NCBI GenBank assembly: GCA_017552965.1
Contig: JAFZNQ010000112.1
Location: 1 to 45,652, forward strand
From: Abditibacteriota bacterium
Lineage (GTDB): Bacteria > Armatimonadota > UBA5829
Direction of reading: 5' to 3'
DNA: 45,652 bases
Shown here: positions 3,021 to 45,652 of the stretch, in pieces
How positions within the stretch are numbered: position 1 is the stretch's first letter
Layout of the letters: every line of letters begins with the position of its first letter
Position numbers and translations under genes: made by a program
The notes under the pieces: generated by a model
What the model saw: only the letters and a program-made list of their open reading frames with translations
Told to the model about the DNA's origin: nothing
The model's database searches: none

Positions 3021-3089
3021 TTGTTACTCCTTTTGCGACCCCGGCCCTGCGGGCCGGAGAGGCAGAAATATCAGAATTCATCCAAGTAT

Positions 3090-3098
3090 ATTATAGCA
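3090..3098 (-). promoter_or_regulatory. Extended -10 promoter (TGC-TATAAT) for paralogue 1
   Basis: Minus-strand TATAAT (3095-3090) is directly preceded by TGC. No good -35 is visible because the upstream bases are the terminator of the neighbouring gene. The site lies about 70 bases before the start codon at 3020. Confidence 0.55.
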
Positions 3099-3099
3099 G

Positions 3100-3124
3100 A
3101 AAAAAGCGCCCCGCGAGGGGGCGC
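3100..3124 (-). terminator. Rho-independent terminator of paralogue 2
   Basis: The stem GCGCCCC (3106-3112) pairs with GGGGCGC (3118-3124), with six T residues following on the minus strand (3105-3100). It separates the two tandem paralogues and almost touches the extended -10 promoter of paralogue 1. Confidence 0.85.
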
Positions 3125-3150
3125 GAAAACATCTTGCGCCGGCGGCGCGC

Positions 3151-5901: not shown

Positions 5902-5940
5902 ACTGTACTCCTGAAAAAAAGTGCAATTTTCTATACTAAT

Positions 5941-5970
5941 ATTATAATCTCCGGCGAGGTGATTTGTCAA
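5941..5970 (-). promoter_or_regulatory. Sigma70-type promoter TTGACA-18-TATAAT for paralogue 2
   Basis: The minus strand reads TTGACA (5970-5965), an 18-base spacer and TATAAT (5946-5941). The expected transcript start is near 5934, giving a leader of about 30 bases before the AGGAG and ATG at 5901. It is one of the closest matches to the full consensus in the window. Confidence 0.8.
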
Positions 5971-6034
5971 GGGCCGGCGGATTTTTTGCCTGAAAAAAGG
6001 GCGTTTTTCGTCCCTTGCGCCCCGGGCCGGGGGC

Positions 6035-6064
6035 TTGCCTTCCGGAGCCGGCTTGTGGTATAAT
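6035..6064 (+). promoter_or_regulatory. Promoter TTGCCT-18-TATAAT with TGG extended -10
   Basis: TTGCCT at 6035-6040, an 18-base spacer ending TGG, and TATAAT at 6059-6064. A transcript start near 6071 would place the TTG codon at 6069 at the 5' end of the RNA. That argues for the downstream start at 6096 for the wall hydrolase gene. Confidence 0.75.
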
Positions 6065-6095
6065 ATAATTGAATAAATCAAGGAAGGTATGCTTT

Positions 6096-30782: not shown

Positions 30783-31564
30783 TAAGAACCTCCCTGTTTG
30801 TGAACAAGAGTTTTTATCATAAGTCCTGTGACTATGAGCAGAAATATCCCGAAAATGATGCGCAGGGCCTTGTAGTCGGCCAGGGCCGCCAGGTCGGAGC
30901 CGGCAAGGGAACAGACGCCCGCCGCAGCTCCGGCTATGAGGCCCGCCGCGAGATCCACGTTGCCCCAGCGGGACTGGAGTATGACTCCGGTGACCGAGGT
31001 GGGGATGATGCACAGCAGGCTGATGCCCTGAGCCGTTCTTTGCTCCACTCCCAGAAGGAGCATGCAGGGGACCAGCACAATGCCGCCGCCTATGCCCAGC
31101 AGCCCGGACAGGATGCCGCTCGCGACCCCCAGCAGGACCAGCAGGGCATACAGGGCCGGGTTTGCCTCGGGAGCGGGGCGCAGGCCGAAAAGGCCCTGCC
31201 CGGTGACCCCGGAGTAGATGATGTTTGCCGCCGTCAGAAACAGCAGGCAGATAAACAGCAGCCTCAGAAGGCGGGTGTCGATACGCTTCACTATCCAGGA
31301 CCCGACGAAAGACCCGGCTATCCCGCCGGCTATGATGAACATGCCGAAGGACCAGCTCACGTGGCCGTGAAAGGCGTAGCGGGTCAGGGCAAATACAGCG
31401 ATAAGGCAGGCGCACACCAGGCTGATGCCCTGAGCCTTTTTTTGCGGCTTGCCCAGAAGCAGCACCAGCATGGGCACTATCACCGTGCCTCCGCCTATGC
31501 CAAGTAGTCCGCCCAGAAGTCCGGCGGCGGCGCCGGAGGCGGCGAGTATCAAGGTTTTTTTCAT
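30782..31564 (-). CDS. TauE/SafE (TSUP) family sulfite/sulfonate exporter-like membrane protein
   Basis: A 260-residue integral membrane protein with about eight hydrophobic segments and two copies of the TSUP hallmark GGLLGIGGGTVIVPM and SGLLGIGGGIVLVP. The family moves sulfite, thiosulfate, sulfonates or organic acids across the inner membrane. Being first in an operon with metX and metW suggests a link to sulfur supply for methionine. It starts at ATG 31564 and the ribosome site is weak. A possible -10 (TATAAT, 31611-31606) lies upstream, without a clear -35. Confidence 0.9.
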   Translation of the reverse strand: MKKTLILAASGAAAGLLGGLLGIGGGTVIVPMLVLLLGKPQKKAQGISLVCACLIAVFALTRYAFHGHVSWSFGMFIIAGGIAGSFVGSWIVKRIDTRLLRLLFICLLFLTAANIIYSGVTGQGLFGLRPAPEANPALYALLVLLGVASGILSGLLGIGGGIVLVPCMLLLGVEQRTAQGISLLCIIPTSVTGVILQSRWGNVDLAAGLIAGAAAGVCSLAGSDLAALADYKALRIIFGIFLLIVTGLMIKTLVHKQGGS

Positions 31565-32747: not shown

Positions 32748-33368
32748 TTACATTACGCTCTGTACCCACTCTCTGACGGCGCTCTCTTCGGGCTGCTCCT
32801 CAAACCGGATGCCCTCCTTCCAGTCGCCCTTGCCTGCGGCCCGCTCCAGAAGGCTGCCGCTTTGGCCCAGGCCCACGTGGGTGGAGGTGCAGAAGGGGAT
32901 GACTATCTTGCCTCCGAAGTCGTTGGCCTTCACAAAGGTGGTGACTGCCCAGGGGGCTTCGCCGTACCATATGGGATAGCCTATGAACACTGTGTCATAG
33001 CTGTCCCAGTCGGCTGCTGTCTTCTCCTTGAGCTCCATATCCTGCAGAGCGGGATCCTGGTGCTGCTTGTTCACCCGGCTCTCGGGGTCCCGCCAGTTCA
33101 GGTCCGCTTCGGTGTAGGGCTCGGAGACCTCTATCTCAAACAGAGCGCCGCCGGTCTCGCCGGCTATGAGCTCCGCCACTCTCCGGGTGTTGCCCGTGCA
33201 GGAAAAATATACAATGAGGGGCTTTTTCGCCTCCGCCGCCTTGTCAGACGGGAGGGGCTCAGGTTTGCCCGCAAGCTCGGGCGCGCCGTTAGGCTTTTCC
33301 TTGCCGTTGCAGGCGGAAAGTCCGATGAGTATCGCCAAAGCTGCCAGTATCGCCAAAAAGGTCTTCAT
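32748..33368 (-). CDS. Lipoprotein flavodoxin
   Basis: A 206-residue protein with a lipoprotein signal (lipobox LSAC, Cys near residue 20), a short charged linker and a flavodoxin domain. The FMN-phosphate loop is visible (YFSCTGNTRRVAELIA), followed by DTVFIGYPIWYGEAPW and a strand with PFCTSTH. An FMN electron carrier anchored outside the cytoplasm is unusual; it may serve extracytoplasmic reduction. AAGGAG precedes the ATG. It has its own promoter and terminator and so forms a single-gene unit. Confidence 0.9.
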   Translation of the reverse strand: MKTFLAILAALAILIGLSACNGKEKPNGAPELAGKPEPLPSDKAAEAKKPLIVYFSCTGNTRRVAELIAGETGGALFEIEVSEPYTEADLNWRDPESRVNKQHQDPALQDMELKEKTAADWDSYDTVFIGYPIWYGEAPWAVTTFVKANDFGGKIVIPFCTSTHVGLGQSGSLLERAAGKGDWKEGIRFEEQPEESAVREWVQSVM

Positions 33369-33469: not shown

Positions 33470-34372
33470 TCAGGAGCCGCTCCTTTCGGGAAATGAGACG
33501 AAGAGGCTCCGGCCGAAGGCGTCCGTCACTGAGTGATATTCCATGCAGAGATAAAAGGTCCACTTGCCTGTCCACCGGGAATAAGCGGCGTTGAAGCCGG
33601 TGATGCGCCCTCTGACGGTCACCTGCTCATTGTTCGCGGCGTATCCGGACTCGGAGGGCCGGTCCGGCTCCCGGCATATGATAAGGACCTCTGTATTCGC
33701 GGGGACGCTGGCTACAGTCAGGCAAAACTCCCCGGATACGGGCAGGGCGGCGCCGCTGTCTTCGCCGAAGAGGTCACAGGACAACAGTATGCGTCCCGTG
33801 ACGGCTGTGTTCAGAGCCTCCGGCAGGATATACTCGTCATACCAGCGGGGCAGCAGCCGCCGCTCCGGGTTAAGCTCCGCAGCGCGGGCCTCCGGCACCA
33901 GCATGTCCAGTATTTTCCCGGCTTCGTCAGAGGTCAGAGGCTCCAAAAGCCCCGTCTTGTCCGTCTCGTCCCGCAGGGCCGGGTCCGTCAAATGTCGACT
34001 GAGGCGGCTCATGAAGTCCATATTTGCATCTTCCCACTCCGCTTCGGAGAGAGAAAAGTTGACCCAATGATCCGGGAGGACCAGACAATGGCTGTCGGAA
34101 AAAGCCTCTATATGCCCTATGGCGTTGATCCTGCCCGTGCCGTCTGCCATGAGCAGGCGCCCGGACTGCTGCAGCATACGGGCCAGCCGGACCATTTCGG
34201 CCCCGGAGGCCGGTCCGGCCTCCGGGTCTCTCAGCTTTGCCGCAAGGCGGTCGTCAAAGGGGCAGCGTATCTCGCCGGCCGGCCGGAGCGTCCGGACCAG
34301 AAACCAGACGATGCTGCCGTCGGCTTTCAGCCGCTCCAGCACCCGGGCGGTCAGGGGTGTGTTTCTCGTCAT
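33470..34372 (-). CDS. IGRIEA-module paralogue 1 (most divergent copy)
   Basis: A 300-residue soluble protein without signal or membrane segments, of unknown function. It has the layout of its neighbours: an N-terminal T-x(6)-L unit leading to WFLVRTLRPAGEIRCPFDD, the family core reading INAIGHIEAFSDSHCLVLPD near residues 83-102, and a C-terminal strand pattern VTVRGRITGF followed by WTFYLCMEY. That last part resembles an OB-like barrel. The core lacks the Tyr and Trp seen in other copies, so this is the least conserved member. Its ATG overlaps the preceding paralogue's stop (ATGA). It is the last gene of the downstream operon. Confidence 0.8.
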   Translation of the reverse strand: MTRNTPLTARVLERLKADGSIVWFLVRTLRPAGEIRCPFDDRLAAKLRDPEAGPASGAEMVRLARMLQQSGRLLMADGTGRINAIGHIEAFSDSHCLVLPDHWVNFSLSEAEWEDANMDFMSRLSRHLTDPALRDETDKTGLLEPLTSDEAGKILDMLVPEARAAELNPERRLLPRWYDEYILPEALNTAVTGRILLSCDLFGEDSGAALPVSGEFCLTVASVPANTEVLIICREPDRPSESGYAANNEQVTVRGRITGFNAAYSRWTGKWTFYLCMEYHSVTDAFGRSLFVSFPERSGS

Positions 34373-35202
34373 AGCCCTGTCCTCCCCCGGTCCAGATAAT
34401 CCAGGACCGCTGGCGGTCCCGGGGTGATGCGGGAGGGGGCTATATCCACGTCTATATGCACCACCAGCCTGGCGTCGGCGCTGTAGTGGTCGGAATAACG
34501 GCAGCCCGTGATCTGCCCCTCCACGGTCACAGAGTCGCCCACGGACAGGTCCCGGCCGCCGAGGTCCGCGTCGGAGCGGCAGGTGAGGGTGATGTTGACG
34601 CCTCTGTCCCTGGCGCAGGATACCCGCAGCAGGTCTCTCTCCGTGTCAAGGGATGTGACAAAGCCCCGGGCCCGGAAAGCCTCCCCCTTCAGCTCGTTGG
34701 CGCTGACCTGAAAGGCCCGGCACAGAAGGGAGGTGATGCCCCAGAAGGAAAAGTCGGCGTATTCGGCGCCGGCGGCGCTTTTGCGCAGCAGGGCTCCGGC
34801 AGTCCGGCGGGTGATAAGGCACACCCCGGACCTGTCAAAGCAGTCCAGGCGGAGACGGCCGGCGTGGGGATAGTGGTAGTCCAGCACCACCCAAATATAG
34901 CGGCAGGATACGGCTTCCACCCGCCCTATGCCGTACACCGAGCCGGACCTGTCCGCCATGAACACCCTGTATCCACGGTCTTCCAGAGTGACGCCCGTAT
35001 CCTCTATGATGGGGCCGCTTTCCGCGAGGGCGTAGAGGCTGTCTTCTTCCGGGCCGGCGGCCTGCTCCCGGCAAAAGGGGGCTGTGTTGGGGAGCCTCTG
35101 CTCCAGAGCCCCGTTGTCGCACCGCAGACACATCCATTTGAGGGCGGTGTCCGCCGCCAGCTCCGAGATGATCTCTCGTGTAATGGGTCGTACTTCTTTC
35201 AT
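34369..35202 (-). CDS. IGRIEA-module paralogue 2
   Basis: A 277-residue soluble protein of the same unrecognised family. N-terminal ITREIISELAAD and KWMCLRCDNG, family core RVFMADRSGSVYGIGRVEAV followed by RYIWVVLDYHY (about residues 78-114), then a helical middle and a C-terminal OB-like strand pattern (GDSVTVEGQITGC). It is separated from the upstream paralogue by a perfect 14-bp hairpin and overlaps the downstream one by four bases. AAGGAG-type sites precede its ATG. Confidence 0.8.
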   Translation of the reverse strand: MKEVRPITREIISELAADTALKWMCLRCDNGALEQRLPNTAPFCREQAAGPEEDSLYALAESGPIIEDTGVTLEDRGYRVFMADRSGSVYGIGRVEAVSCRYIWVVLDYHYPHAGRLRLDCFDRSGVCLITRRTAGALLRKSAAGAEYADFSFWGITSLLCRAFQVSANELKGEAFRARGFVTSLDTERDLLRVSCARDRGVNITLTCRSDADLGGRDLSVGDSVTVEGQITGCRYSDHYSADARLVVHIDVDIAPSRITPGPPAVLDYLDRGRTGL

Positions 35203-35233
35203 ATCTTCTCCTTTGACGCTCCTTTCAATGCGA

Positions 35234-35265
35234 CGGAAAGGGGCGGCAGACGCCGCCCCTTTCCG
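35234..35265 (-). terminator. Perfect 14-bp hairpin inside the paralogue operon (attenuator or RNA-processing site)
   Basis: CGGAAAGGGGCGGC (35234-35247) pairs perfectly with 35252-35265 around the loop AGAC. It lies between two paralogous genes. There is no T-run on the minus strand (TCGCATTG follows), so it is more likely a partial attenuator or a stabiliser of the upstream transcript than a full terminator. Confidence 0.6.
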
Positions 35266-35272
35266 CAGGCCT

Positions 35273-36127
35273 TTATTCCCCGGATCTGACCAGGTCGTGC
35301 AGGGTCAGCTCGAAGCGGGCCCGCCTGCCGAAGCTCAGGTCCGTCCCGGTCAGCAGCCCCGACACCTCCACCGGGTCTCCCCGGCGCAGAGCCCTTGCCT
35401 TGGCCAGCAGGGCGCTGTCCGAGGGGTCGAAGACGCAGGAAAAGACGGCGCCGGCGTCTTCGCCAAAGGCTTCGATCTCCAGCTGCGCAAAACTTCTGCG
35501 GTCGTCCCAGCCGGTGCGTTCCCGATAGTCTTCGGCTATGCCGCAGACTCTGATGAGCCTGTCTGCCGACAGATCGGGGACGTTTCCCAGGTCAAAGGCC
35601 ATATCGTCCGATACCCAGTCGTCTTCGAACCGGAGGGCGCTGCAGGCCTTTTCTTCGCAAAGGCTATCCGCTGCGTCAAGCAGCCTGCGGGCGGCGGCTT
35701 CGGATAATTCCATGAAGCCAGCCCCACTCAGATCGCGGTCCTCGTCTTCGGAGAAGGCGGAGCTCACGTCCGGACAGTCCTCGGTGAAGAAGTCCGGGAC
35801 AGCCCATATATAGCGGTCCGAGGCGGCTTCGATGCGGCCTATGGCGTAGAGGGCTGCTTTTCTCTCGGTGTCGCGCGTTTGCAGGGGACAGAGGAAAAAC
35901 ACCCGGCTGCCGGCCAGCTGCGGCGCGATGACGCTCCAGTCGGAGTCCGTCTCCTGCCCATAGCAGATGATCTCCGATATCCGGCGTCTGCGGAAGCCCC
36001 TGTCGTCAAGGGAAAGGCACACCTCTTTCAGAGGGGCGCTGCAAAAGACAGCGAAGCTGCGTTCGCTGCGTTCGTTTCTCAGCCGATCTATATCTTCGGC
36101 GGTGATGAAGGTGACGTTGCGTGTCAT
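35273..36127 (-). CDS. IGRIEA-module paralogue 3 (matches C-half of the fused gene)
   Basis: A 284-residue soluble protein. N-terminal FITAEDIDRLRNERSERSFAVFCSAPLKEVCLSL, core LAGSRVFFLC and LYAIGRIEAASDRYIWAVPDFF, helical middle, and a C-terminal OB-like pattern GDPVEVSGLLTG. The second half of the gene at 39920-41581 has the same order of motifs (RQFAVYSPAPLGEVCIPL, LVGSRVFMVC, LYAVGHIEAASDRYMWAIPDFY, GDPAEVRGELRQ), so the two are closer to each other than to other copies. The start at 36127 follows AAAGGAG; the longer frame to 36316 shadows the upstream gene. Confidence 0.82.
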   Translation of the reverse strand: MTRNVTFITAEDIDRLRNERSERSFAVFCSAPLKEVCLSLDDRGFRRRRISEIICYGQETDSDWSVIAPQLAGSRVFFLCPLQTRDTERKAALYAIGRIEAASDRYIWAVPDFFTEDCPDVSSAFSEDEDRDLSGAGFMELSEAAARRLLDAADSLCEEKACSALRFEDDWVSDDMAFDLGNVPDLSADRLIRVCGIAEDYRERTGWDDRRSFAQLEIEAFGEDAGAVFSCVFDPSDSALLAKARALRRGDPVEVSGLLTGTDLSFGRRARFELTLHDLVRSGE

Positions 36128-36137
36128 AGCATCTCCT

Positions 36138-36923
36138 TTATATAGTCTCATCCGCAGCCTCGCCGCAGGGGGTGACGCTGCAGTCCGCGAGCCGGATCTC
36201 CAGGGTCCGGCTCTCCTTGCCGTCTTCTTCCTCGCTGATGCGGGTCCGCATGCGGGCCAGCCGGCCTTCCACGACGACGCAGTCTCCCTCGGAGAGAGAC
36301 TGCCCGGGGTCAGCATGGAAAACGACCCTCATGTCCTCGCCGGCGATGACGCAGCGTCTCCCGTGTACGCCGGTGACGGCGCCTTCCACGCGGAAATGCT
36401 GAGGGGCCAGCCGGTCTGCGAGCCGGTTGTCCATGTCCGCAAGGCTTTCGGAGGTAAAGTCGGTATAGACGTGGACGCCGTCAAAGGGCTCTATGCAGTC
36501 CAGTATCTCCTCCGCCGCAGTCCTGGTGACAAAACCGTCGCGGGTCCAGAAGTCGGAAAAAGGCTTCTCGATATAATAATCCAGCACTACCCAGAAATAC
36601 CGGTCCGAAGCCGCCTCTATACGGCCTATGCCGTAGATGCCTTCCGAGCCGTCCATGAACACCCTGCAGGCAGGGTAGTCCCGGAGGAGCTCTGCCTTGA
36701 CGGCGTTCTTGTCGGGCTTGTTTACGCTGTCGCGCAGCAGGCCGCTCTCTATGAGGCTGTTCTGCTCTTCGCTCAGAGCGTCCGCTATGTCGCCCGCGAT
36801 CTCGTCCGTGTCAAAGCGGCATACGGCTTCGTTGTTGCGGCAGCCGAGCATAAGCCATTTGGCGCCGGACGCCAGCCGCAGGGCTGCCAGGTCTTCGGCA
36901 GTCAGGGATCTGAAGTTTATCAT
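36138..36923 (-). CDS. IGRIEA-module paralogue 4 (matches N-half of the fused gene)
   Basis: A 261-residue soluble protein, first gene of the downstream operon. N-terminal LTAEDLAALRLASGAKWLMLGCRNN, core CRVFMDGSEGIYGIGRIEAA then RYFWVVLDYY, a conserved VHVYTDFTSESLADM segment, and a C-terminal OB-like GDCVVVEGRLARM. The first half of the fused gene has the same series (LTAADAAALR, AKWLILRCED, YRVFMTNWCGVYAIGRIEAV, AHVYAELTPERLNDL, GDRAAAEGRL). GGAG precedes the ATG at 36923. A long leader of about 360 bases lies upstream and carries the conserved element. Confidence 0.82.
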   Translation of the reverse strand: MINFRSLTAEDLAALRLASGAKWLMLGCRNNEAVCRFDTDEIAGDIADALSEEQNSLIESGLLRDSVNKPDKNAVKAELLRDYPACRVFMDGSEGIYGIGRIEAASDRYFWVVLDYYIEKPFSDFWTRDGFVTRTAAEEILDCIEPFDGVHVYTDFTSESLADMDNRLADRLAPQHFRVEGAVTGVHGRRCVIAGEDMRVVFHADPGQSLSEGDCVVVEGRLARMRTRISEEEDGKESRTLEIRLADCSVTPCGEAADETI

Positions 36924-37283
36924 GTGATACTCCTTAAAAAGTTGTCGTTATTGCAGACGGGTCTGCAAAGGTGGGTGCCTGTAACTCGGTAGATGGTGTG
37001 TGTCTCGCTATAGGCGCGGCCTCCTGTATCCGTGGGCCCCGGTCAAAAGCGGTCCTCCTGCCGGGCGGCAAAGGCCGTCCGCAGCAGCGCCTGCCCGAAG
37101 GGCTCCGTAATTCTACTGTGACTGTGATGCTCCGATACGCAGACCAGAGTCCTGCGCACCGCAAAGAAAAGGGGATAAAGGGATCAAAAGGATGATCGGC
37201 AGCTTCTCTGCAGCCTGCGGCTGCAGACACCCCTATATTAGTTGGCTGGTCCGGGACAGTGCCCTCCGGCCGGCAGGCCGGAC
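36924..37283 (-). other. Long leader (~360 bases) of the downstream paralogue operon
   Basis: No credible gene lies in this stretch. If transcription starts near 37278 from the TATAAT at 37289-37284, the RNA has a 5' leader of about 355 bases. It opens with a small hairpin (CCGGCC 37266-37271 with GGCCGG 37276-37281), then the conserved element at 37161-37255. The rest (36930-37160) has mixed composition with no clear structure or ORF that I could support. Confidence 0.5.
37161..37255 (-). ncRNA. Conserved leader element, copy A (candidate structured RNA)
   Basis: On the minus strand: CCCGGACCAGCCAACTAATA (37255-37236), then GGGG and a perfect 9-bp stem-loop (37227-37219 with 37215-37207, stem TCTGCAGCC/GGCTGCAGA, loop of three), then AGAAG, and a pyrimidine-rich tail with ATCCC and TATCCCC words to about 37161. 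Copy B at 42756-42861 has the same flanks in the same order around a different stem. Conservation of flanks with a change of stem that keeps pairing is what a functional RNA would show, but two copies are few. Confidence 0.6.
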
Positions 37284-37294
37284 ATTATATTATA
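37284..37294 (-). promoter_or_regulatory. Overlapping TATAAT boxes before the downstream paralogue operon
   Basis: The minus strand has two overlapping TATAAT hexamers (37294-37289 and 37289-37284). No strong -35 is visible; a T-rich hexamer (TTTTTC) stands about 17 bases upstream. No clear terminator separates this promoter from the upstream operon ending at 37384, so read-through is possible. Confidence 0.5.
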
Positions 37295-37383
37295 CGCATG
37301 GGCGGGGAAAAATATACCCGGAAAATGCGTTTTTTTCGGCGGCGGGAGCTTTTTTTGCGCCGGCGGCCCCGATGCCTGCCGGG

Positions 37384-38478
37384 TCAAAAATAATAGCCGC
37401 CAAAAGAACCATAGAAATAGGCCTTGACCTTGTCCCCCAGATCAGCTGTGACCTCTCCGAAGGAGGCTCTGAAATCTATGACGGTCAGCCTGAGGGTCCC
37501 CGCTCCGGCAAGCCTGCGCAGGTCGTCGGGCACCAGGTCCTCCGCGGGCAAGCCCCGCTCTTCCAGCCTCCCCGCGATGTCGGCGAGGACCCTGGCCAAC
37601 ACCTCCACGCGCAGGTTCAGGCTGTCGGTGGTCAGGTTGAGCCGGTCCGCCCAGTCCTTGTAGTTCAGCCAGGCTTTGTCCGTGGTGTGCCTTTTGAAGG
37701 CTCCCACGTACACATGCGCTCCTCCGGCTATAAGGGCGTTGATCTCCTCTTCTTCCCGGGCGAGCCCGTTCGTTGTGTTGAGGGCGGGCCTGTCTATGAG
37801 CCTCAGCAGGACTCCGATATAACCGCATATAAAGGTCATGAGGACGGTCCTGCTGCCCTGCTTTATACCCGTGAGCCCGAGGATCTCCGGGACCAGCGGG
37901 TCGGCGTCTTCGGTGAAATAGCGTTTGCCCGCGTAGGCCGCGGGGCCTTCTTGGTCGCTGTCCGGCACGGCTATGAGGAAGACCACGGAGCTTTTGTTCC
38001 AGAGGACCACGTCCGCCATGCCGGTCTTTCCCCGGAAGGGAGAGGGGTTCCGGAAGCCGAAGGCCGTCTTGTCGGAGGTGAACCGGGTATTGAGTCTGTT
38101 CCTCTGATAAAGCTGCAGGCTATTAATGTCCCGATGAAAATACAGCAGCTCGTCCAAAGGGAGCGATTTGGCCTTTTCCAGGGCGGCGGCGTTTGCCGGG
38201 TCAGCCTGTATGAGCTGACAGTATTTGCGGACAAAGGCGTCCGTGTCTTCTATGTCGAACACTTGCGCCAGGCCCTTTGCCGCCTCCTGGTGGTCTCCCT
38301 CGGCGGCCCTGGCCAGATAAGGCTTGACGGCCTTCTTCAGGCTCTTGGTGGAACGGAAGGGGTCCAGCAGATCCAAAAGGTCCGGGATCACCGCTTGGGG
38401 ATAGGCCGCCCGCCTTCTTTTTTCTGCTTTCCACGCGTTAAACCGATCCCCCAATTCCCTGGGGCTGATGCTTGCCAT
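37384..38478 (-). CDS. FGFRNPS/EEEEINALIAGGA-family protein, copy 1
   Basis: A 364-residue soluble protein of unknown function. Shared landmarks with the gene at 41651-42712 appear in the same order: a helical N-terminal region, LPLDELLYFHRD, then FTSDKTAFGFRNPSPFRGKT and DVVLWNKSSVVFLIA, a C-terminal NTTNGLAREEEEINALIAGGAHVYVG, and a helical tail (LNLRVEVLARVLADIAGRLEERG, VPDDLRRL). The run of acidic residues and the GKT are not a recognisable Walker or nuclease site. GGGAGGAAAGC precedes the ATG. It is the last gene of the upstream operon, 53 bases after the gene ending at 38532. Confidence 0.8.
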   Translation of the reverse strand: MASISPRELGDRFNAWKAEKRRRAAYPQAVIPDLLDLLDPFRSTKSLKKAVKPYLARAAEGDHQEAAKGLAQVFDIEDTDAFVRKYCQLIQADPANAAALEKAKSLPLDELLYFHRDINSLQLYQRNRLNTRFTSDKTAFGFRNPSPFRGKTGMADVVLWNKSSVVFLIAVPDSDQEGPAAYAGKRYFTEDADPLVPEILGLTGIKQGSRTVLMTFICGYIGVLLRLIDRPALNTTNGLAREEEEINALIAGGAHVYVGAFKRHTTDKAWLNYKDWADRLNLTTDSLNLRVEVLARVLADIAGRLEERGLPAEDLVPDDLRRLAGAGTLRLTVIDFRASFGEVTADLGDKVKAYFYGSFGGYYF

Positions 38479-38531
38479 GCTTTCCTCCCTATACCAATTG
38501 CTTATGCGTAATCCGCAGCAGGATAATTCCG

Positions 38532-39923
38532 CTAACGGTAGTAATAAAACAGACCTTTCAGTTGCTTTACTGTCTCTGCGACTTGTTCCCGGGGCTGCCC
38601 CTTCATGCCCCTGAGCCTGTCGGGATTCAGTATCCAGAAAGCGCGGGAACGGTTATAGCCCCCTATGCACAGATCGGCAACGGAATCACTGTACCGCTCG
38701 TCTGCGGATATCCTGAAAAGCCTTTTCCCGGGGCGGGCCATAAAGGCCTGCAGCACCTTTTCCGGCTCTGTGCGCATATCGCCCGGGCAATATGAGGTCC
38801 CTTCGCTCACGGGAGCCCCTGAGGGGTCCGTGGCGTCCCGGGTGTAGTATATATGCGCCTTGCCCCGGCAGTCCGCCAGCAAGACCTTTTCCTGTCCGTA
38901 TCTCTCCGCCAGGCCTATGGCCAGACCGTGCAGATACTCTTCATCCTCTGGTCCGGAGCAGAGCGCGGTCACGATCTCCTTGTCAATATTATCCCGGCCG
39001 AATATCCGGGAGCCCACAGGGTCCAGCCGGCAGCTGTATGCCTCATCCAGCATCCATCTGCGCATGGCCTCCCGGTCTTCCGGTTCCCGAGGAGTCTCTC
39101 TGTCTCCGTCTTCTGCCCCGGAGTCATATGAGCCGAACAGGGAGAACGTGTCAAGGCGGGCAAAACCGGCCAGCATCTGCAGCTCTTTGGTCATCTGTCT
39201 GTTCCGGAGCTCCGGCCCCTGTCCCCAGGCGGACACCAGAGCCATAGGCTCCCCTTTTTCGAGATGCCCGGAGAGGGCTTTCAGGGCGCTGCCGCAGACG
39301 GGATATTGGGCAAACAGGCCGCAAAACGGGGCGTCGTTCCACAGAAACGTCTCTGCGGGGAATTCGTCGTCGCAGGCTCCGGAGATGAGCCCGGCAAACA
39401 GCCTCGGGTCCTCCAGAAAACGGTTCAGGTCATGATATACGTAAACTCCCCAGGAATTGGGGCTCTCGGCCCTTGCTTCATAGTTGTAATAATCCCGCTG
39501 CGTAAGCCCGAAATTGTCGCGCAGATACAGGCGGACCATTTCCGTGAGGATCTTCGCAGGAGCATCGCAGTCGAGACTGACCTTCATGCGGAGCACCCCC
39601 ATATCCGAGGGGATAAAGCCGCCCCTCTCTATACGGGCCTCCTTCAAGGGTTCCACGGAAAAGGTGAGGACCCTGTCCGCATAGAGCCTGTAGAGATCCC
39701 TCTCGTACTCGATACGGGTCCCGTCCGCAGCGTAAAACCACTCCCGGGGCAGTTCATCGGGAAAAAAGGGGAATTGCACCTCGCCCTTGAGCCCCATGAT
39801 GTGAAACCGTTTGCGCCTGTAGCGGCGGTCTATAGAGTCCCGCAGCATTTCCGTGTCGATCGCTTTGTGCTTCAGCAGTGTCAGAGCCTTCTCCGAAGCG
39901 TCTTCTGGTATAGTGTATATCAT
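38532..39923 (-). CDS. Unrecognised protein of the accessory cluster (single copy)
   Basis: A 463-residue soluble, acidic protein, with no signal peptide or membrane helix and no motif I recognise. The N-terminal third is rich in aromatic and charged residues (RRYRRKRFHIMGLKGEVQFPF). The C-terminal part has strand-like stretches (KVLLADCRGKAHIYYTRD, KRLFRISADERYSDSVADLC) and ends LKGLFYYYR. Unlike the other families here it has no paralogue in the window. The ATG overlaps the stop of the fused IGRIEA gene by four bases (ATGA), so the two are probably translated together. Confidence 0.75.
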   Translation of the reverse strand: MIYTIPEDASEKALTLLKHKAIDTEMLRDSIDRRYRRKRFHIMGLKGEVQFPFFPDELPREWFYAADGTRIEYERDLYRLYADRVLTFSVEPLKEARIERGGFIPSDMGVLRMKVSLDCDAPAKILTEMVRLYLRDNFGLTQRDYYNYEARAESPNSWGVYVYHDLNRFLEDPRLFAGLISGACDDEFPAETFLWNDAPFCGLFAQYPVCGSALKALSGHLEKGEPMALVSAWGQGPELRNRQMTKELQMLAGFARLDTFSLFGSYDSGAEDGDRETPREPEDREAMRRWMLDEAYSCRLDPVGSRIFGRDNIDKEIVTALCSGPEDEEYLHGLAIGLAERYGQEKVLLADCRGKAHIYYTRDATDPSGAPVSEGTSYCPGDMRTEPEKVLQAFMARPGKRLFRISADERYSDSVADLCIGGYNRSRAFWILNPDRLRGMKGQPREQVAETVKQLKGLFYYYR

Positions 39924-41581
39924 ATCCGCCCTCCTTTTGCCGCAGCATCGCCCTCCGCCTGTCCTTTGTCCGGCCGCAGGCCGTGGAGCTTCAGCTTCAG
40001 AGTGCGCAGACCGTCATGACCTACGGATATCTGCCGCAGCTCGCCCCTGACCTCAGCCGGATCTCCGGGCCGCAGTTCCCTGGCCAGGTCCAGCAGGTCC
40101 GTGTCGAAAGGGTCGAGGTCACAGCAAAGGCGGGTGCCGGATCCCCTCCAAAATGCATCCAGCGTCAGGGTCGCCTGCCCCGTCAGCGCGGAGCCCTTGC
40201 CCCATTTGGTCCGTTCGCCAAAGCCTGCGGCATAGCCCCGGACGCTCACCAGCCTCTCCGGCGGGCAGCCGGGGATATCGGCGATGTCAAAGAGCAGGTC
40301 GCAGGCGGCGTGCCGTCCGTTCTCCCGGACGGTGCTCACGGCCTTTTTGCCCGAATCGAGGGACAGCCGGTCAATAATTCTGCCTGCGGCAGCCCCGGAT
40401 ATTTCCGCAAAGCCGTATTCCCGCAGTACTGCTGATTCCCGGCGGTAATAATGGCGGGCCAACTTAAGCTTGCGCGTCGCGCGTTTGGGCAGCAGGTCGC
40501 CCACTTCGGGCATGCTGCCTGTGTAAAAGTCGGGGATCGCCCACATATACCGGTCGGAGGCTGCCTCTATGTGCCCGACGGCGTATAAGGGGTATTTCCT
40601 GCCGGCTCCGCCCTTGCAGACCATAAAGACGCGGCTGCCGACGAGCTGCTGCGCCACAAGGCCCAATTCGCCGTTTTCCTGGCAGCAGCGGCCTATCTTT
40701 ACCTGCAGGGGGATGCACACCTCGCCGAGGGGCGCCGGGCTGTAAACCGCGAACTGTCTGCCGCATTGTTCTGACCGCAGGCTTTTGACCGTTTCCCCGG
40801 AAATATGCTGATGGCGGGGGGCGGGGCTGTCTGCGAGATAAAAGGTGACAGTATTGTCTTCCGAGCCTGTGCTGATGGCTGTGCGGCTGGTTTTCAGAAG
40901 CATCAGACGGCCTTCCGCTGCCGCCCGGTCTCCGACGCGCGCTCCCGGCTCGAGGGCGCATTTCACTATCCATTTCGTCCCGAGGTCAAAGGGGACAGTC
41001 AGGGTAAGGGTCTCGTTCTCCGTGCTGCTGACGGTCCCCTCAAAGCGGAGCCAGCAGGGCTCCAGCTTTTCCGGGCGGAACACCGCCAGGTCATTCAGCC
41101 TCTCGGGGGTCAGCTCGGCGTAAACGTGAGCGCCTTCAAAGATTTTGCGGGAGTCGAGTATCCTGGCGGCGGAGGCGCCGGAGATGAGGCCGGTGTCGAA
41201 GGGCACGCAGGACGTCTCTTCGAGCCACAGCTCCGCTGTCACCCACACGTACCGTTCCGAAACAGCTTCTATGCGTCCTATGGCGTAAACGCCGCACCAG
41301 TTGGTCATAAACACTCTGTAGTTCCGGAAGTTCGCGGCGATATCTCTTTTGACGGCCTCTGCGTCAAAGCTGACGCGGTTCCTGAAGACTCCGTAATACG
41401 ACAGAGCCGTCTCCACTTCTTCCTGTTCGGCCAGTATGATGTTCGCCAGCTCGTCCATGTCAAAGCGTACCGAGGCGGGTTTGCCCTTGCAGTCTTCGCA
41501 GCGCAGGATCAGCCATTTGGCGCTGTGATCCTGTCTCAGAGCCGCAGCGTCTGCGGCTGTCAAAAAACTAAGACGTGTCAT
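39920..41581 (-). CDS. Two-module IGRIEA protein (fusion of paralogue 4-like and paralogue 3-like units)
   Basis: A 553-residue soluble protein made of two family units. Unit 1 (about 1-265): LTAADAAALR, AKWLILRCED, VFMTNWCGVYAIGRIEAVSERYVW, OB-like GDRAAAEGRL. Unit 2 (about 266-545): ISGETVKSLR, RQFAVYSPAPLGEVCIPL, LYAVGHIEAASDRYMWAIPDFY, GDPAEVRGELRQ. In the other operon the corresponding units are two separate adjacent genes (36138-36923 and 35273-36127) in the same order. The ATG at 41581 follows AAAGGAG; the small upstream extension (to 41608) has no ribosome site. Such fused and split forms suggest that the two polypeptides contact each other. Confidence 0.82.
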   Translation of the reverse strand: MTRLSFLTAADAAALRQDHSAKWLILRCEDCKGKPASVRFDMDELANIILAEQEEVETALSYYGVFRNRVSFDAEAVKRDIAANFRNYRVFMTNWCGVYAIGRIEAVSERYVWVTAELWLEETSCVPFDTGLISGASAARILDSRKIFEGAHVYAELTPERLNDLAVFRPEKLEPCWLRFEGTVSSTENETLTLTVPFDLGTKWIVKCALEPGARVGDRAAAEGRLMLLKTSRTAISTGSEDNTVTFYLADSPAPRHQHISGETVKSLRSEQCGRQFAVYSPAPLGEVCIPLQVKIGRCCQENGELGLVAQQLVGSRVFMVCKGGAGRKYPLYAVGHIEAASDRYMWAIPDFYTGSMPEVGDLLPKRATRKLKLARHYYRRESAVLREYGFAEISGAAAGRIIDRLSLDSGKKAVSTVRENGRHAACDLLFDIADIPGCPPERLVSVRGYAAGFGERTKWGKGSALTGQATLTLDAFWRGSGTRLCCDLDPFDTDLLDLARELRPGDPAEVRGELRQISVGHDGLRTLKLKLHGLRPDKGQAEGDAAAKGGRI

Positions 41582-41650
41582 GATATACTCCTTTGTATCC
41601 GTTGTCATTGCGGCAGAGCAGGCAGCCCGGCTCGCCGACCTTATCCCGGC

Positions 41651-42712
41651 CTATTGATAGCCCATTACTGCCGGGCAGACCTGCAGGTTGACGCCCCCGG
41701 GCAGGACCAGCCCTCTGAGCCCTGCGGGAAAGACCTCGTCCGGGTCTATATTGCGCTCTTTCAGCTTTTCGGACAGGCTGCGGTAAACCGCGGTGATATC
41801 CGCCGAGCGGCTCTGCAGGCGCTCCGCCTCTCTGTTGAGCCTGTTTGCCAGGCCGTTGTATTCGGCCTTGCGGGGAAAGCTGCGTGGGCCTGCGATGCCC
41901 AGATACACCTGCGCTCCGCCGGCGATAAGGGCGTTGATCTCTTCTTCCTCTTCTGCCAGACCGTTGTCCGTGTTCACCGCCGGACTGTCGAGTATCCTGT
42001 GGAGGACTCCCGCAAAAAGCAGCACGAACTGCCTGAAACGGGTCTTCTCATATTCCGGTCCCGTGTATTCCAGAGTATAGCGGAGCAGAGGGTCTGCGCT
42101 GTCTCCCGTCATACGTATGCCAAAGCTGCGGGGGGCGTCCGACACGCAGCCGCTGCCGCAGAGAAAGACGATCTGCTCCCGGTTCCGGAGCACCACGTCT
42201 ATGACGTCGGTCTTTCCCCGTAGCGCCGACGGGTTTCGGAAGCCGAAGACCGTCTTTTCCGAGGAAAACCCCGTGATGCCGGCAGTGGTTGACAGCCATC
42301 TGATATAGTCTGCCCTGTCGCGATAATAAAACAGCAGTTCATACAGCGGCAGGGACCCCTGCGGGTTTTCCATTGCCGCCGGCATGTCCGGATCCGACAG
42401 CATCAGCTGCCGGTATTTCCGGGCAAACAGCTCCCTGTCGGCGCCGATGCCGAACAGGTCCGCCAGGTCCAGGCCGTCGGAATAGTGATCCTGCGCGGCC
42501 TTTTGCGCCGCAGCCTGCAGCCCTTTTTCCTGCAGCAGCCCCGAGGGACAGAGAGAATCCAGCAGCGCAAGAAGCCCGCTGACAGCCTGCCTCCGGTCGC
42601 CCTTTTTCTTTCGGCCGATCCACTCTTCCAGGGCCCTGACAGTCTTCGGGGGAAGGGGCTGTCCCAGCTGGACGGCGTTCATGGTGTGGTATAGATGATC
42701 AAAGCTGGCCAT
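41651..42712 (-). CDS. FGFRNPS/EEEEINALIAGGA-family protein, copy 2
   Basis: A 353-residue soluble protein, paralogue of the gene at 37384-38478: LPLYELLFYYRDRADYI, FSSEKTVFGFRNPSALRGKT, DVVLRNREQIVFLCG, NTDNGLAEEEEEINALIAGGAQVYLG, and a helical tail with RSLSEKLKERNIDPDEVFPAGLRGL. The start at 42712 is chosen because GGAGG stands before it and the paralogue begins similarly; the open frame to 43105 runs back through the leader element. It is the first gene of the upstream operon. Function unknown. Confidence 0.8.
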   Translation of the reverse strand: MASFDHLYHTMNAVQLGQPLPPKTVRALEEWIGRKKKGDRRQAVSGLLALLDSLCPSGLLQEKGLQAAAQKAAQDHYSDGLDLADLFGIGADRELFARKYRQLMLSDPDMPAAMENPQGSLPLYELLFYYRDRADYIRWLSTTAGITGFSSEKTVFGFRNPSALRGKTDVIDVVLRNREQIVFLCGSGCVSDAPRSFGIRMTGDSADPLLRYTLEYTGPEYEKTRFRQFVLLFAGVLHRILDSPAVNTDNGLAEEEEEINALIAGGAQVYLGIAGPRSFPRKAEYNGLANRLNREAERLQSRSADITAVYRSLSEKLKERNIDPDEVFPAGLRGLVLPGGVNLQVCPAVMGYQ

Positions 42713-43045
42713 ATGCGCCTCCGCTGCCCGAGCTGAAAACAGGCTCGCGGGCATAAACGACAGGGGATACAAGAAGGGACCGAAGAAAATGGCGTCTTCT
42801 CCCGCTGCCGGCCTTCCGGACGACCGGCTGCGGGCTCCCCATATTAGTTGGCTGCTCCGGGATCTGAGGCCCGGACGGTCGGCGTCTATCGCCGAACGAT
42901 GTATGGACTGTGCGCCGGCAGGAGCTGCCTTTCGGAAATACCGCGCCTGTGTGAGCGCCTGACTGCGCCTGCGGATCAAGGGGCGATCTGTGTGAGGCCG
43001 AACACCTTGCGGCTCTCCGAAATGATCGGGCAAACAACCTCCGGC
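42713..43045 (-). other. Long leader (~330 bases) of the upstream accessory operon
   Basis: No supported gene. With a start near 43045 from the promoter at 43052-43081, the RNA leader is about 330 bases. The part nearest the gene (42756-42861) is the conserved element, copy B. The promoter-proximal part is GC-rich with short inverted repeats (for example GGCGTC with GACGCC-like words) that I cannot order into a firm structure. Confidence 0.5.
42756..42861 (-). ncRNA. Conserved leader element, copy B (candidate structured RNA)
   Basis: On the minus strand: CCCGGAGCAGCCAACTAATA (42861-42842), TGGGG, then a stem-loop (42834-42824 with 42811-42801, 11 positions with one A-A mismatch; the stem differs from copy A), then AGAAG, TCCCTT and TATCCCC words and a T-rich end. 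The shared words occur in the same order and at similar distances as in copy A, whereas the promoter and gene distances differ between the two copies. This suggests that the element, not the whole leader, is the conserved unit. Confidence 0.6.
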
Positions 43046-43164: not shown

Positions 43165-44205
43165 TCACTCTGCGCTCCCGTCAGGGCTGCCGGTATCCGC
43201 TCCGTATCTCTTCATGAACTCCGAATATGCGGCCGGATCTTCCCGCTGCAGGAGCCCCGCGAGCCGGTCTGCTGGTATGGCGGCAAAGCCAAACCGGACG
43301 CCTTTTTCTCCGAACAGGTCAAACACCGAGGGAGAGCTGGCGGCCAGACGGTCCGTAAACAGGGCGCAGTCCCCGATGAGTTCCTCCCGGGCCGCCTCAT
43401 AATGCCGGGGGTCGATGTCTGTGCCGGCAAAGTATTCCGGCTCCGGAGCCCAATAGCAGAGCGCCAGGGTGATCCGGCTCAGGGTGCCGGGGAGCCCTCC
43501 CAGATAGCACCGCTCGTTGAAAATGCCGATGATATGCCTGTAGAGCTGGGCGGCGTCCAGGCGCCGGAAGTCTCGGGAGTTGACCCGCTTCCGGAGGGGC
43601 GCCAGAGCCTCGAACAGTCCGGCAGGATATCGGGACGGGTCGCCGTAGGCGTGATCGAGGACCTTGGGCGGGTCGCACAGCCACTCCGAGAGCTTGGTCT
43701 CCACAAAGACGCCATTTTTTCCGTCATACAGATAAGCGTCCAGATTGGCCGGCCTGTTGCTGCCCCATAAGACCCGCAGCTTTTTTTCGTATTCTATCCT
43801 GTAAGGGCCGCCTTCCGGCCCGGAGTCCGCTGCCGGCGGATATGAATGCGCGCTGCTCTCTCTGAGATCGCCGGCGAAGACAGCCTCGGGCCCGTTGCCG
43901 AATATATTGAAGGTCAGGGCAGACGAGCTGGCGACAGAGTGCAGCTTGGGCGGCTGCAGACTGCCGTGTTTATCGACGTATTCCTCCAGCTCCCCGCCGT
44001 CGCCTTCTCTGTAGGCGCGCTCCGTGTCCGGGGACATGCTTTGGAGCAGGTTGTCGTCCCGGCGGATGAAGTAGAAGTCTCTCATCCGGGTCTTGTAGGG
44101 GCAGTCCTCTGCGTCTCCCCGGAAAACCGGCCGCTCTGCGCCGGGATGCAGCCTGAGCCATCTGTCTTTGATGACTTTGTATAATGATAGTCGCGAAATG
44201 ATCAT
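43165..44205 (-). CDS. Putative PD-(D/E)XK restriction endonuclease-like protein (PGN_0703-type)
   Basis: A 346-residue soluble protein. The segment SSSALTFNIFGNG and the later RPANLDAYLYDGKNGVFVETKLSEWL have the order seen in PGN_0703-type putative restriction endonucleases: a nuclease fold with Asp (NLDAYL) and an E-x-K motif (VETKLSEW), the usual PD-(D/E)XK metal site. The role would be DNA cleavage, perhaps without a partner methylase, since none is visible here. GGAGGATCA precedes the ATG, overlapping the stop of a 20-codon hydrophobic ORF. No clear terminator follows, so it may be co-expressed with the accessory operon. Confidence 0.65.
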   Translation of the reverse strand: MIISRLSLYKVIKDRWLRLHPGAERPVFRGDAEDCPYKTRMRDFYFIRRDDNLLQSMSPDTERAYREGDGGELEEYVDKHGSLQPPKLHSVASSSALTFNIFGNGPEAVFAGDLRESSAHSYPPAADSGPEGGPYRIEYEKKLRVLWGSNRPANLDAYLYDGKNGVFVETKLSEWLCDPPKVLDHAYGDPSRYPAGLFEALAPLRKRVNSRDFRRLDAAQLYRHIIGIFNERCYLGGLPGTLSRITLALCYWAPEPEYFAGTDIDPRHYEAAREELIGDCALFTDRLAASSPSVFDLFGEKGVRFGFAAIPADRLAGLLQREDPAAYSEFMKRYGADTGSPDGSAE

Positions 44206-44277: not shown

Positions 44278-44554
44278 TACTTCCTTCATAGGGCGGGTGG
44301 AAAACGGGAACCTGCAGCCCGTGGGGCTGCGCTGCGGGAACAGCGGGGCAGCGGCTGCGGCAGCTGCCGGGGCTTTGTGAATAAACAAGCGTAAAAAAAA
44401 TACGCGGGCACATCCACACCTTCCTTTATATACATGGCAAAAAGCTGTTGAGACTCTTTGCCGGAGAACATGGTCCTCCATTTATAGCTGACGGCAAAGC
44501 AGCCAAAATTGTTCCCCGGCAGGCGACATCTTTTTGCCGGCCAGGGCAACACAC
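44278..44554. other. Intergenic stretch with GC-rich hairpins, no supported gene
   Basis: It contains GCAGCCC-GTG-GGGCTGC (44314-44330), the palindrome CGGCAGCTGCCG (44358-44369) and GCGTA-A7-TACGC near 44390. A reading frame with a fair ribosome site near 44419 continues into the nuclease gene in another frame and lacks protein-like composition. Confidence 0.5.
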
Positions 44555-44745
44555 CCCGCGTCATCCCGGCGGAACGGCGCCCGGCGGTCAAGTCAGAACG
44601 TCATCTCGGCGCCACACTCCGCGTCATCTCGGCGCCTCCGCAGGAGGCGGTAAGAGATCTACGGGGTCCCCGAAAAATCGTAAGATTTTTTGGGGTGGTT
44701 TGCGGACCCCACCGACGGCATTCGCCGTCGGTGTCTCCGGCTCCC
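44555..44745. repeat. Intergenic repeat element, copy 2 (inverted relative to copy 1)
   Basis: Three CGTCATCYCGGCG units (44559-44571, 44599-44611, 44622-44634) are followed by a 7-bp hairpin (CGCCTCC 44633-44639 with GGAGGCG 44643-44649) and GGTAAGAGATCTACGGGG. Two further stem-loops follow: CCCCGAAAAATC/GATTTTTTGGGG around 44668-44695, and ACCGACGGC-ATTC-GCCGTCGGT (44711-44732). The first half is the reverse complement of the left-edge element at 1-150. It is highly structured and non-coding. Confidence 0.75.
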
Positions 44746-44756
44746 CGGGATATCGT

Positions 44757-44876
44757 TTAACTGTCAAACATCAAGCTGCATATGACGTAAACATAGTAAA
44801 GAACAATACCCACAGGAGCCGTAATAATGCAAAAGAGCAGAATCAGTATAAAACTTATGGCGTCGTTGCTTTTCAT
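44757..44876 (-). CDS. Small membrane protein (39 aa)
   Basis: ATG at 44876, preceded by AGAGGTG, encodes MKSNDAISFILILLFCII then TAPVGIVLYYVYVICSLMFDS: a protein that is almost entirely two hydrophobic stretches with a break at TAPVG. An upstream extension to 44948 has no good ribosome site. It has no recognised family. Confidence 0.5.
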   Translation of the reverse strand: MKSNDAISFILILLFCIITAPVGIVLYYVYVICSLMFDS

Positions 44877-44919
44877 AATAACACCTCTTGTTAAACCGGA
44901 TCCTCCGCTGCAAACAAAC

Positions 44920-45006
44920 CTACTGTCCTTGTTTATTAGAATCTCCAAATCTACTCAGGAATCTATCTGTTCTCTCTAAGAGTTCCCAAATTCTTTCTGC
45001 GAGCAT
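44920..45006 (-). CDS. Possible small amphipathic ORF (28 aa)
   Basis: ATG at 45006, with TTAGGA seven bases upstream, encodes MLAERIWELLERTDRFLSRF followed by a polar tail. A GTG at 45030 would add eight residues (VIKKLGSL). It uses AGA, TTA and ATT codons that are rare in the GC-rich genes of the window, and it lies in an AT-richer stretch. The helix would be amphipathic. Support is modest. Confidence 0.35.
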   Translation of the reverse strand: MLAERIWELLERTDRFLSRFGDSNKQGQ

Positions 45007-45109
45007 TAAAGATCCTAACTTTTTGATCACCTCACTATAGAATTCAGAAGTCTTTTATGTCCTGCATTCTACTATACGATAAGGCGCCTGACCTTTGATA
45101 CTCCTTTTG

Positions 45110-45261
45110 TGATCGCGCGGCAGATAAAGCCGTCAGATACATGATCCCCGAGAGGAGCCTCCCTCATTTCTTCCCAAATAAAATACTCAAAGCCAGGCTG
45201 ACAATGGCTATGGTAACCAGCAGCTGCATCACACACCTCCTTTACTTACTGATCGCGCGGC
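45110..45261. repeat. 12-bp direct repeats TGATCGCGCGGC flanking a tiny ORF
   Basis: TGATCGCGCGGC occurs at 45110-45121 and again at 45250-45261, 140 bases apart, in the same orientation and just beyond the end of dnaB. The segment between them contains the 21-residue hydrophobic ORF. Confidence 0.6.
45164..45229 (-). CDS. Tiny hydrophobic ORF (21 aa) with strong Shine-Dalgarno
   Basis: ATG at 45229, preceded by AAAGGAGGTG, encodes MQLLVTIAIVSLALSILFGKK, one membrane helix with a Lys-Lys end. The length, helix and basic end resemble small hydrophobic peptides such as type I toxin or holin-like toxin peptides, but no antisense RNA promoter is identified here. It lies between dnaB and the other small ORFs, inside the 12-bp direct repeats. 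Confidence 0.5.
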   Translation of the reverse strand: MQLLVTIAIVSLALSILFGKK

Positions 45262-45263
45262 GT

Positions 45264-45652
45264 TTATATCTGACAGATGGCGGCATCCCGCTCCGGCGCG
45301 TTCCCGACTGCAGCCGGATCGCGAAAGGCGGCGTATTTTCTCATGAAATCCAGCGTCACCTCCCGGGTCCCGCCGTTTCTGTGTTTGGCGATGATCACCT
45401 TCGCCTCTTCCGCCGGGTCCTGCCCGGCGTCACCGGAGGCGCTGCCGTCATAATAGGAAGGCCTGTGCAGCATGAGTACCATATCCGCTTCCTGCTCTAT
45501 AGAGCCGCATCCTCTCAGATCGCTGAGCTGAGGCCTTTTGTCCGGGCGGTCCTCCAGCTTGCGGTTCACCTGAGACAGAGCCATCACCGGACAGTCCATT
45601 TCCTTGGCCAGGAGCTTGAGCCCCCGGACTATCTCGCTGATCTCCTGGTTCC
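45264..45652 (-). CDS. dnaB: Replicative DNA helicase DnaB, C-terminal part (cut by the window edge)
   Basis: The last about 129 codons of a RecA-fold replicative helicase that unwinds DNA at the fork. Visible: NQEISEIVRGLKLLAKEM, then CPVMALSQVNRKLEDRPDKRPQLSDLRGCGSIEQEADMV with the helicase motif H4-like region, VLMLHRPSYYD, and AKVIIAKHRNGGTREVTLDF with the conserved Arg finger-type KHRNG. The 5' part lies beyond 45652. The tail after the helicase core is about 20 residues and ends DAAICQI. Confidence 0.95.
   Translation of the reverse strand, partial: NQEISEIVRGLKLLAKEMDCPVMALSQVNRKLEDRPDKRPQLSDLRGCGSIEQEADMVLMLHRPSYYDGSASGDAGQDPAEEAKVIIAKHRNGGTREVTLDFMRKYAAFRDPAAVGNAPERDAAICQI

Follow-up and report, generated by a model that had tools for sequence, protein, structure and literature searches.

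We describe a cluster of two operons in the window (the whole analyzed stretch of 45,652 nucleotides), whose eight genes encode three protein families, A, B and C, without detected relatives in the collections searched. The core of the cluster is a pair of homologous modules, A and A′, which is present three times. Each module has a C-terminal part for which an OB fold is predicted, and both operons are preceded by a leader that is exclusive to them. Our preferred reading, which we hold tentatively, is that A:A′ pairs form the basis of a complex for nucleic-acid recognition in which B and C are partners; the locus encoding it would be lineage-restricted and is probably conflict-related.

Gene layout and the shared leader

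The eight genes lie on the minus strand between positions 33470 and 42712 (Table 1). Operon 1 is transcribed in the order P0008 (B), P0007 (A fused to A′), P0006 (C) and P0005 (B), and operon 2 in the order P0004 (A), P0003 (A′), P0002 (A) and P0001 (A′); the gap between the operons is 460 nt. An earlier, sequence-only reading of the window had outlined this cluster, and its coordinates and gene content proved correct. The four-base overlaps that it had claimed are real and were located at positions 39920-39923 (P0007/P0006) and 34369-34372 (P0002/P0001). The remaining intra-operon gaps measure 10-70 nt. The cluster genes have GC3 values of 0.71-0.79, and differences between paralogs are most common at codon position 3, as would be seen if real genes were constrained at the level of the protein. 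Thus, the genes look coding. All module copies are intact and have kept their motifs despite strong divergence, and the GC content of the cluster matches that of the genome.

Table 1. Genes and leader elements of the cluster and the neighboring gene P0009
Feature	Position	Strand	Observation
P0001, A′ module of 300 aa, the most diverged of the copies	33470..34372	-	Recovered at E 1.6e-8 by the leave-one-out HMM; joins P0003 and the C-terminal half of P0007 in one clade (98/95)
P0002, A module, 277 aa	34369..35202	-	Leave-one-out HMM E 4.1e-22; clusters with P0004 and the N-terminal half of P0007
P0003, A′ module, start put at the MTRNVTF methionine	35273..36127	-	36% identity to the C-terminal half of P0007
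P0004, A module, 261 aa, member modeled	36138..36923	-	AlphaFold mean pLDDT 72.6, pTM 0.52; C-terminal OB fold predicted
Leader element, operon 2	37231..37256	-	26 nt, 92% identity to the copy at 42837-42862
P0005, B family, 364 aa	37384..38478	-	39% identity to P0008 over 318 aa; all family matches below threshold
P0006, singleton C, 463 aa	38532..39923	-	No match in libraries, plasmids, phages, viral contigs or phylum genomes
P0007, A and A′ fused, 562 aa	39920..41608	-	N-terminal half clusters with A, C-terminal half with A′
P0008, B family, 353 aa, opens operon 1	41651..42712	-	39% identity to P0005 over 318 aa
Leader element, operon 1	42837..42862	-	92% identity to the operon-2 copy
P0009, PD-(D/E)xK restriction-endonuclease-like neighbor, membership in the system uncertain	43165..44205	-	PF22558 E 2.4e-6

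The sequence-only reading had also postulated shared leader elements, and this claim was borne out by the nearly identical stretches found ahead of the two operons (Table 1). Their 14-nt core, CAGCCAACTAATAT, has exactly two copies in the 2.78-Mb assembly, and these are located only at the two operons. That the operons are tied together is supported both by this exclusive leader and by the A/A′ pairing described below. In both leaders, the core can occupy the loop of a short stem, which is followed by a strong hairpin. The folding z-scores of approximately -0.2 (leader 2) and -1.9 (leader 1) are not clearly better than those of shuffled sequence, and the leader had no match in Rfam. A conserved RNA leader structure was therefore set aside. 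The leader may act as an operator or as an RNA element, or it may be left over from duplication.

The paired A and A′ modules and their predicted fold

The module occurs six times in five genes, namely in P0001, P0002, P0003, P0004 and both halves of P0007, as the sequence-only reading had counted. In leave-one-out HMM searches, in which five copies had to find the sixth, the E-values were 1.6e-8, 4.1e-22, 1.4e-33, 2.9e-24, 6.4e-30 and 8.2e-20. The best E-value in the control, 1200 shuffles per search, was never below 1.9. The hallmark proposed for the module, Y-x-I-G-R/H-I-E-A-x-S-x-R-Y-x-W-x-x-x-D, is present exactly in P0004 and P0003 and with one conservative change in P0002 and both halves of P0007, of which the C-terminal one uses the H that the pattern permits. 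In P0001, however, the hallmark is degenerate (NAIGHIEAFSDSHCLVLPD) and lacks both the W and the RY. The second proposed pattern, GDxxxVxGxL, is loosely retained in five of the six modules, whereas P0001 has NEQVTVRGRI.

A tree of the modules splits P0002, P0004 and the N-terminal half of P0007 (A) from P0001, P0003 and the C-terminal half of P0007 (A′) with a support of 98/95. P0001 and P0002 have long end branches, and their exact placement is therefore less sure. The modules alternate in the order A-A′-A-A′ in operon 2 and are fused once, as A-A′, in operon 1. Alternation, fusion and separate clades together indicate that the duplicated unit is the pair. Most simply, duplication affected the pair as a whole instead of one gene, and the two modules would work together. 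The fusion in P0007 lends support to a putative physical association of A and A′. The earlier description of the families as repeatedly duplicated fits A, but B has been duplicated only once. Neither the alternating A-A′ pairs nor the restriction-endonuclease-like gene adjacent to the cluster was part of the sequence-only reading.

P0004 was modeled with AlphaFold on the basis of a six-sequence alignment (Table 1). The OB strands of the C-terminal part comprise residues 176-187, 190-194, 198-203, 215-231 and 237-252. A Foldseek search with this part ranked a bacterial SSB first (E 1.5e-4, probability 1.0), and a second aligner, VIA, returned other OB domains with a Z of about 8 over 72 residues at 2.2 A. 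Thus, the C-terminal OB fold that had been suggested earlier is supported at the level of the predicted fold by the model and by both aligners, and the A module very probably ends in five OB strands. The likeness to bacterial SSB extends to this five-stranded fold. In contrast to SSB, A has a second, N-terminal domain and occurs in tandem A/A′ pairs, and the Pfam SSB profile PF00436 yielded 12.4 bits (E 0.17) at a cut-off of 26. Because this score is below the cut-off, the module was filed as OB-fold-like only and not as SSB. OB folds often bind DNA or RNA but also serve as protein-protein or sugar-binding domains. Superantigen OB domains were among the best OB structural matches.

The N-terminal part of the model (residues 1-158) shows an order of elements similar to that of the YTH/EVE domains of the PUA superfamily. 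VIA aligned it with YTHDF1, YTHDF2, YTHDF3, YTHDC1 and MRB1 at Z 7.3-8.5 over 104-115 residues, which is at the edge of noise, as the guidance of VIA itself assigns a best Z of 7-8 to the range of models without a clear match. Furthermore, the number of YTH matches is inflated by the many YTH entries in the PDB. Tests for YTH/EVE membership at the sequence level (Pfam, hhalign and HMM), for which the EVE and YTH query sequences had been checked against PDB chains, were negative for A. The positive control of hhalign, EVE versus YTH, failed too, so that the negative tests neither support nor exclude membership. Inspection of the sequences revealed that the W of RYxW could match one position of the YTH aromatic cage in five of the six modules; the A modules contain no second conserved cage aromatic and no clear third one. 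A YTH/EVE-like N-terminal half is possible in view of the model, and we propose it with reservation. As modeled, module A is a new arrangement that includes at least one known fold.

Search for relatives and proposed role of the locus

Searches of Pfam, NCBIfam, PADLOC, PHROGs and PDB sequences yielded no significant hit for proteins of the A, B and C types, in agreement with the sequence-only reading, which had recognized none of them as a known family. Both B proteins, P0005 and P0008, contain FGFRNPS, RGKT and EEEEINALIAGGA exactly as reported, and P0006 is indeed a third type, unrelated to A and B. The AlphaFold model of B was unusable (pLDDT 36). Motifs of nucleases, ATPases or toxins were found in none of A, B and C.

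Relatives of A and B were absent from 100 related genomes, and relatives of A, B and C from 291 phylum genomes, two of which belong to the same genus and are 84% and 91% complete. The cluster as a whole is likewise absent from the same-genus genomes, incomplete to this extent, and the same-family genomes with which the window was compared. Viral contigs queried for A, B and C, plasmids queried with P0005, P0006 and P0007 and a phage collection queried with P0005 and P0006 were empty. GTDB contigs, queried for B and, by means of a DNA pattern, for the A hallmark, contained no relative. Two matches to the hallmark pattern in the collection scans were dismissed as chance occurrences in unrelated frames. 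Such pattern-based scans are blind to distant relatives, and the absence of A, B and C refers to the sensitivity and coverage used and not to nature. Three sub-threshold profile matches were obtained in other genomes of the phylum, to RecG, an aspartyl-tRNA synthetase and a prepilin-like protein. Judged by reading of the sequences, the first two of the three are nucleic-acid-binding OB-fold proteins.

In the nucleic-acid-recognition complex that we propose, the core would consist of the related A and A′ proteins, each composed of an N-terminal alpha/beta domain and a C-terminal OB fold. The A/A′ pair arose three times, as the fused P0007, as P0004/P0003 and as P0002/P0001, which hints at as many A:A′ heterodimers whose binding preferences would have diverged. 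Operon 1 would provide, together with the fused pair, the two copies of B and the single C as scaffold or effector subunits, while operon 2 would supply two additional A:A′ pairs. Co-regulation of both operons would be ensured by the leader that they share. Defense or another conflict with mobile DNA would be the most likely use, and the complex would perhaps sense unusual or modified nucleic acid.

In favor of such a complex, we count the A/A′ clades with their alternation and fusion, the OB fold, the matches to RecG and aspartyl-tRNA synthetase, the YTH matches, the leader, the patchy presence of the cluster and the adjacent P0009. The versatility of OB folds, the noise-level Z of the YTH matches, the negative sequence tests, the single plausible counterpart of an aromatic-cage position, the lack of nuclease, ATPase and toxin motifs, the empty PADLOC search, the paralog of P0009 elsewhere in the genome and the incompleteness of the same-genus genomes count against it. 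If the proposal holds true, the locus combines folds that bind nucleic acid in a new way, in a bacterial lineage that is uncultured, and represents an additional candidate conflict or recognition system that is invisible to profile libraries; the pair architecture then predicts that A binds A′ and that each pair has its own specificity. We consider it doubtful that the locus encodes an undescribed multi-subunit nucleic-acid-sensing machine with triplicated A:A′ pairs (a new N-domain plus an OB fold) and the new families B and C, unrelated to described systems and so far confined to one genome.

Alternatively, the locus is not a system at all but a stretch of fast-evolving orphan genes that arose by local tandem duplication, with A, B and C lacking a common function. 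Orphan genes are common in metagenome-assembled genomes, no relatives were found elsewhere in the collections searched, and the sharing of the leader could be a by-product of duplication. However, every copy is intact, the motifs were maintained under strong divergence, and the genes show tight overlaps and an ordered A-A′ alternation. We regard a mere orphan expansion as unlikely; the interest of the locus would then be mainly evolutionary.

Borders of the cluster and the neighboring gene P0009

It is rather unlikely that an unknown mobile element left the cluster behind as its residue, with A, B and C serving functions of the element such as replication, ssDNA binding or packaging instead of defense. 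The occurrence in a single genome and the predicted OB/SSB-like fold of A would be compatible with such an origin, as would the right flank. The 3′ end of dnaB at the right end of the window (45264-45652, minus strand) and the start of contig C57 have exactly 141 bp in common before they diverge, with LRGCGSIEQEAD in the window copy versus LRESGSIEQDAD in G000:C57:1-371. This assembly fork suggests that a second copy of dnaB or a strain variant lies beside the cluster, and it could be the scar of an integration event. However, a dnaB remnant was not found at the left boundary, and no genes for an integrase, terminase, capsid or relaxase were recognized in the region from 33 to 45 kb. Searches of PHROGs, phages (P0005 and P0006), plasmids (P0005-P0007) and viral contigs returned no matches, and the GC content equals that of the genome.

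P0009 is located upstream of the operon-1 leader. It scored 27.8 bits against PF22558 (REase-ARP; cut-off 27), and a paralog at G000:C46:5010-6104 scored 30.1 bits. The paralog is 29% identical to P0009; it has a uracil-DNA glycosylase gene as its neighbor and is remote from all A, B and C genes. In the alignment of the two proteins, NLDAYL...FVETK pairs with FVDVYL...LFEIK, so that D...ExK is kept according to our reading of the sequences. Plasmids and viral contigs contained no match to P0009. Going by its name, PF22558 is likely the rapidly evolving REase of PMC9503650; the likeness is above the Pfam cut-off and concerns P0009 alone, not A, B or C. Because P0009 lies outside the operons and has a paralog elsewhere, it was not taken as a definite effector. 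It is a predicted nuclease that need not belong to the system.

In prokaryotes, EVE/YTH domains are tied to modification-dependent restriction (PMC7641849), and the CoCoNuT systems of type IV restriction combine OB folds with YTH-like domains (PMC11090510). Together with the YTH structural matches of the A model and the PF22558 membership of P0009, these precedents would fit A modules that act as YTH/EVE-like readers of modified bases and guide P0009 as a PD-(D/E)xK nuclease. We consider this explanation improbable. A has no YTH/EVE sequence signal and an incomplete aromatic cage with one possible tryptophan, P0009 is situated upstream of the leader of operon 1 and its paralog occurs without the cluster, and a GTPase or helicase partner is missing; unlike in CoCoNuT and McrBC systems, library scans of the nine proteins recognized neither an McrB GTPase nor McrC, and no coiled-coil or HEPN protein either.

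Several further features were observed on both sides of the cluster. In the nearest relative (G002), synteny with the window extends to about position 31135, where the contig of that genome ends. A flavodoxin-like gene left of the cluster (32748-33368, minus strand) belongs to a family with six matches in the source genome. The stretch between P0009 and dnaB (44500-45280) has a low GC content (0.52) and contains small open frames and short repeats, with GCGTCATC... at 44545 and 44608 and TGATCGCGCGGC at 45110 and 45250. Positions 243-6081 encode two large adjacent proteins of the secreted type, 925 and 976 aa in length, whose C-terminal parts are near-identical and which apparently arose by a recent tandem duplication.
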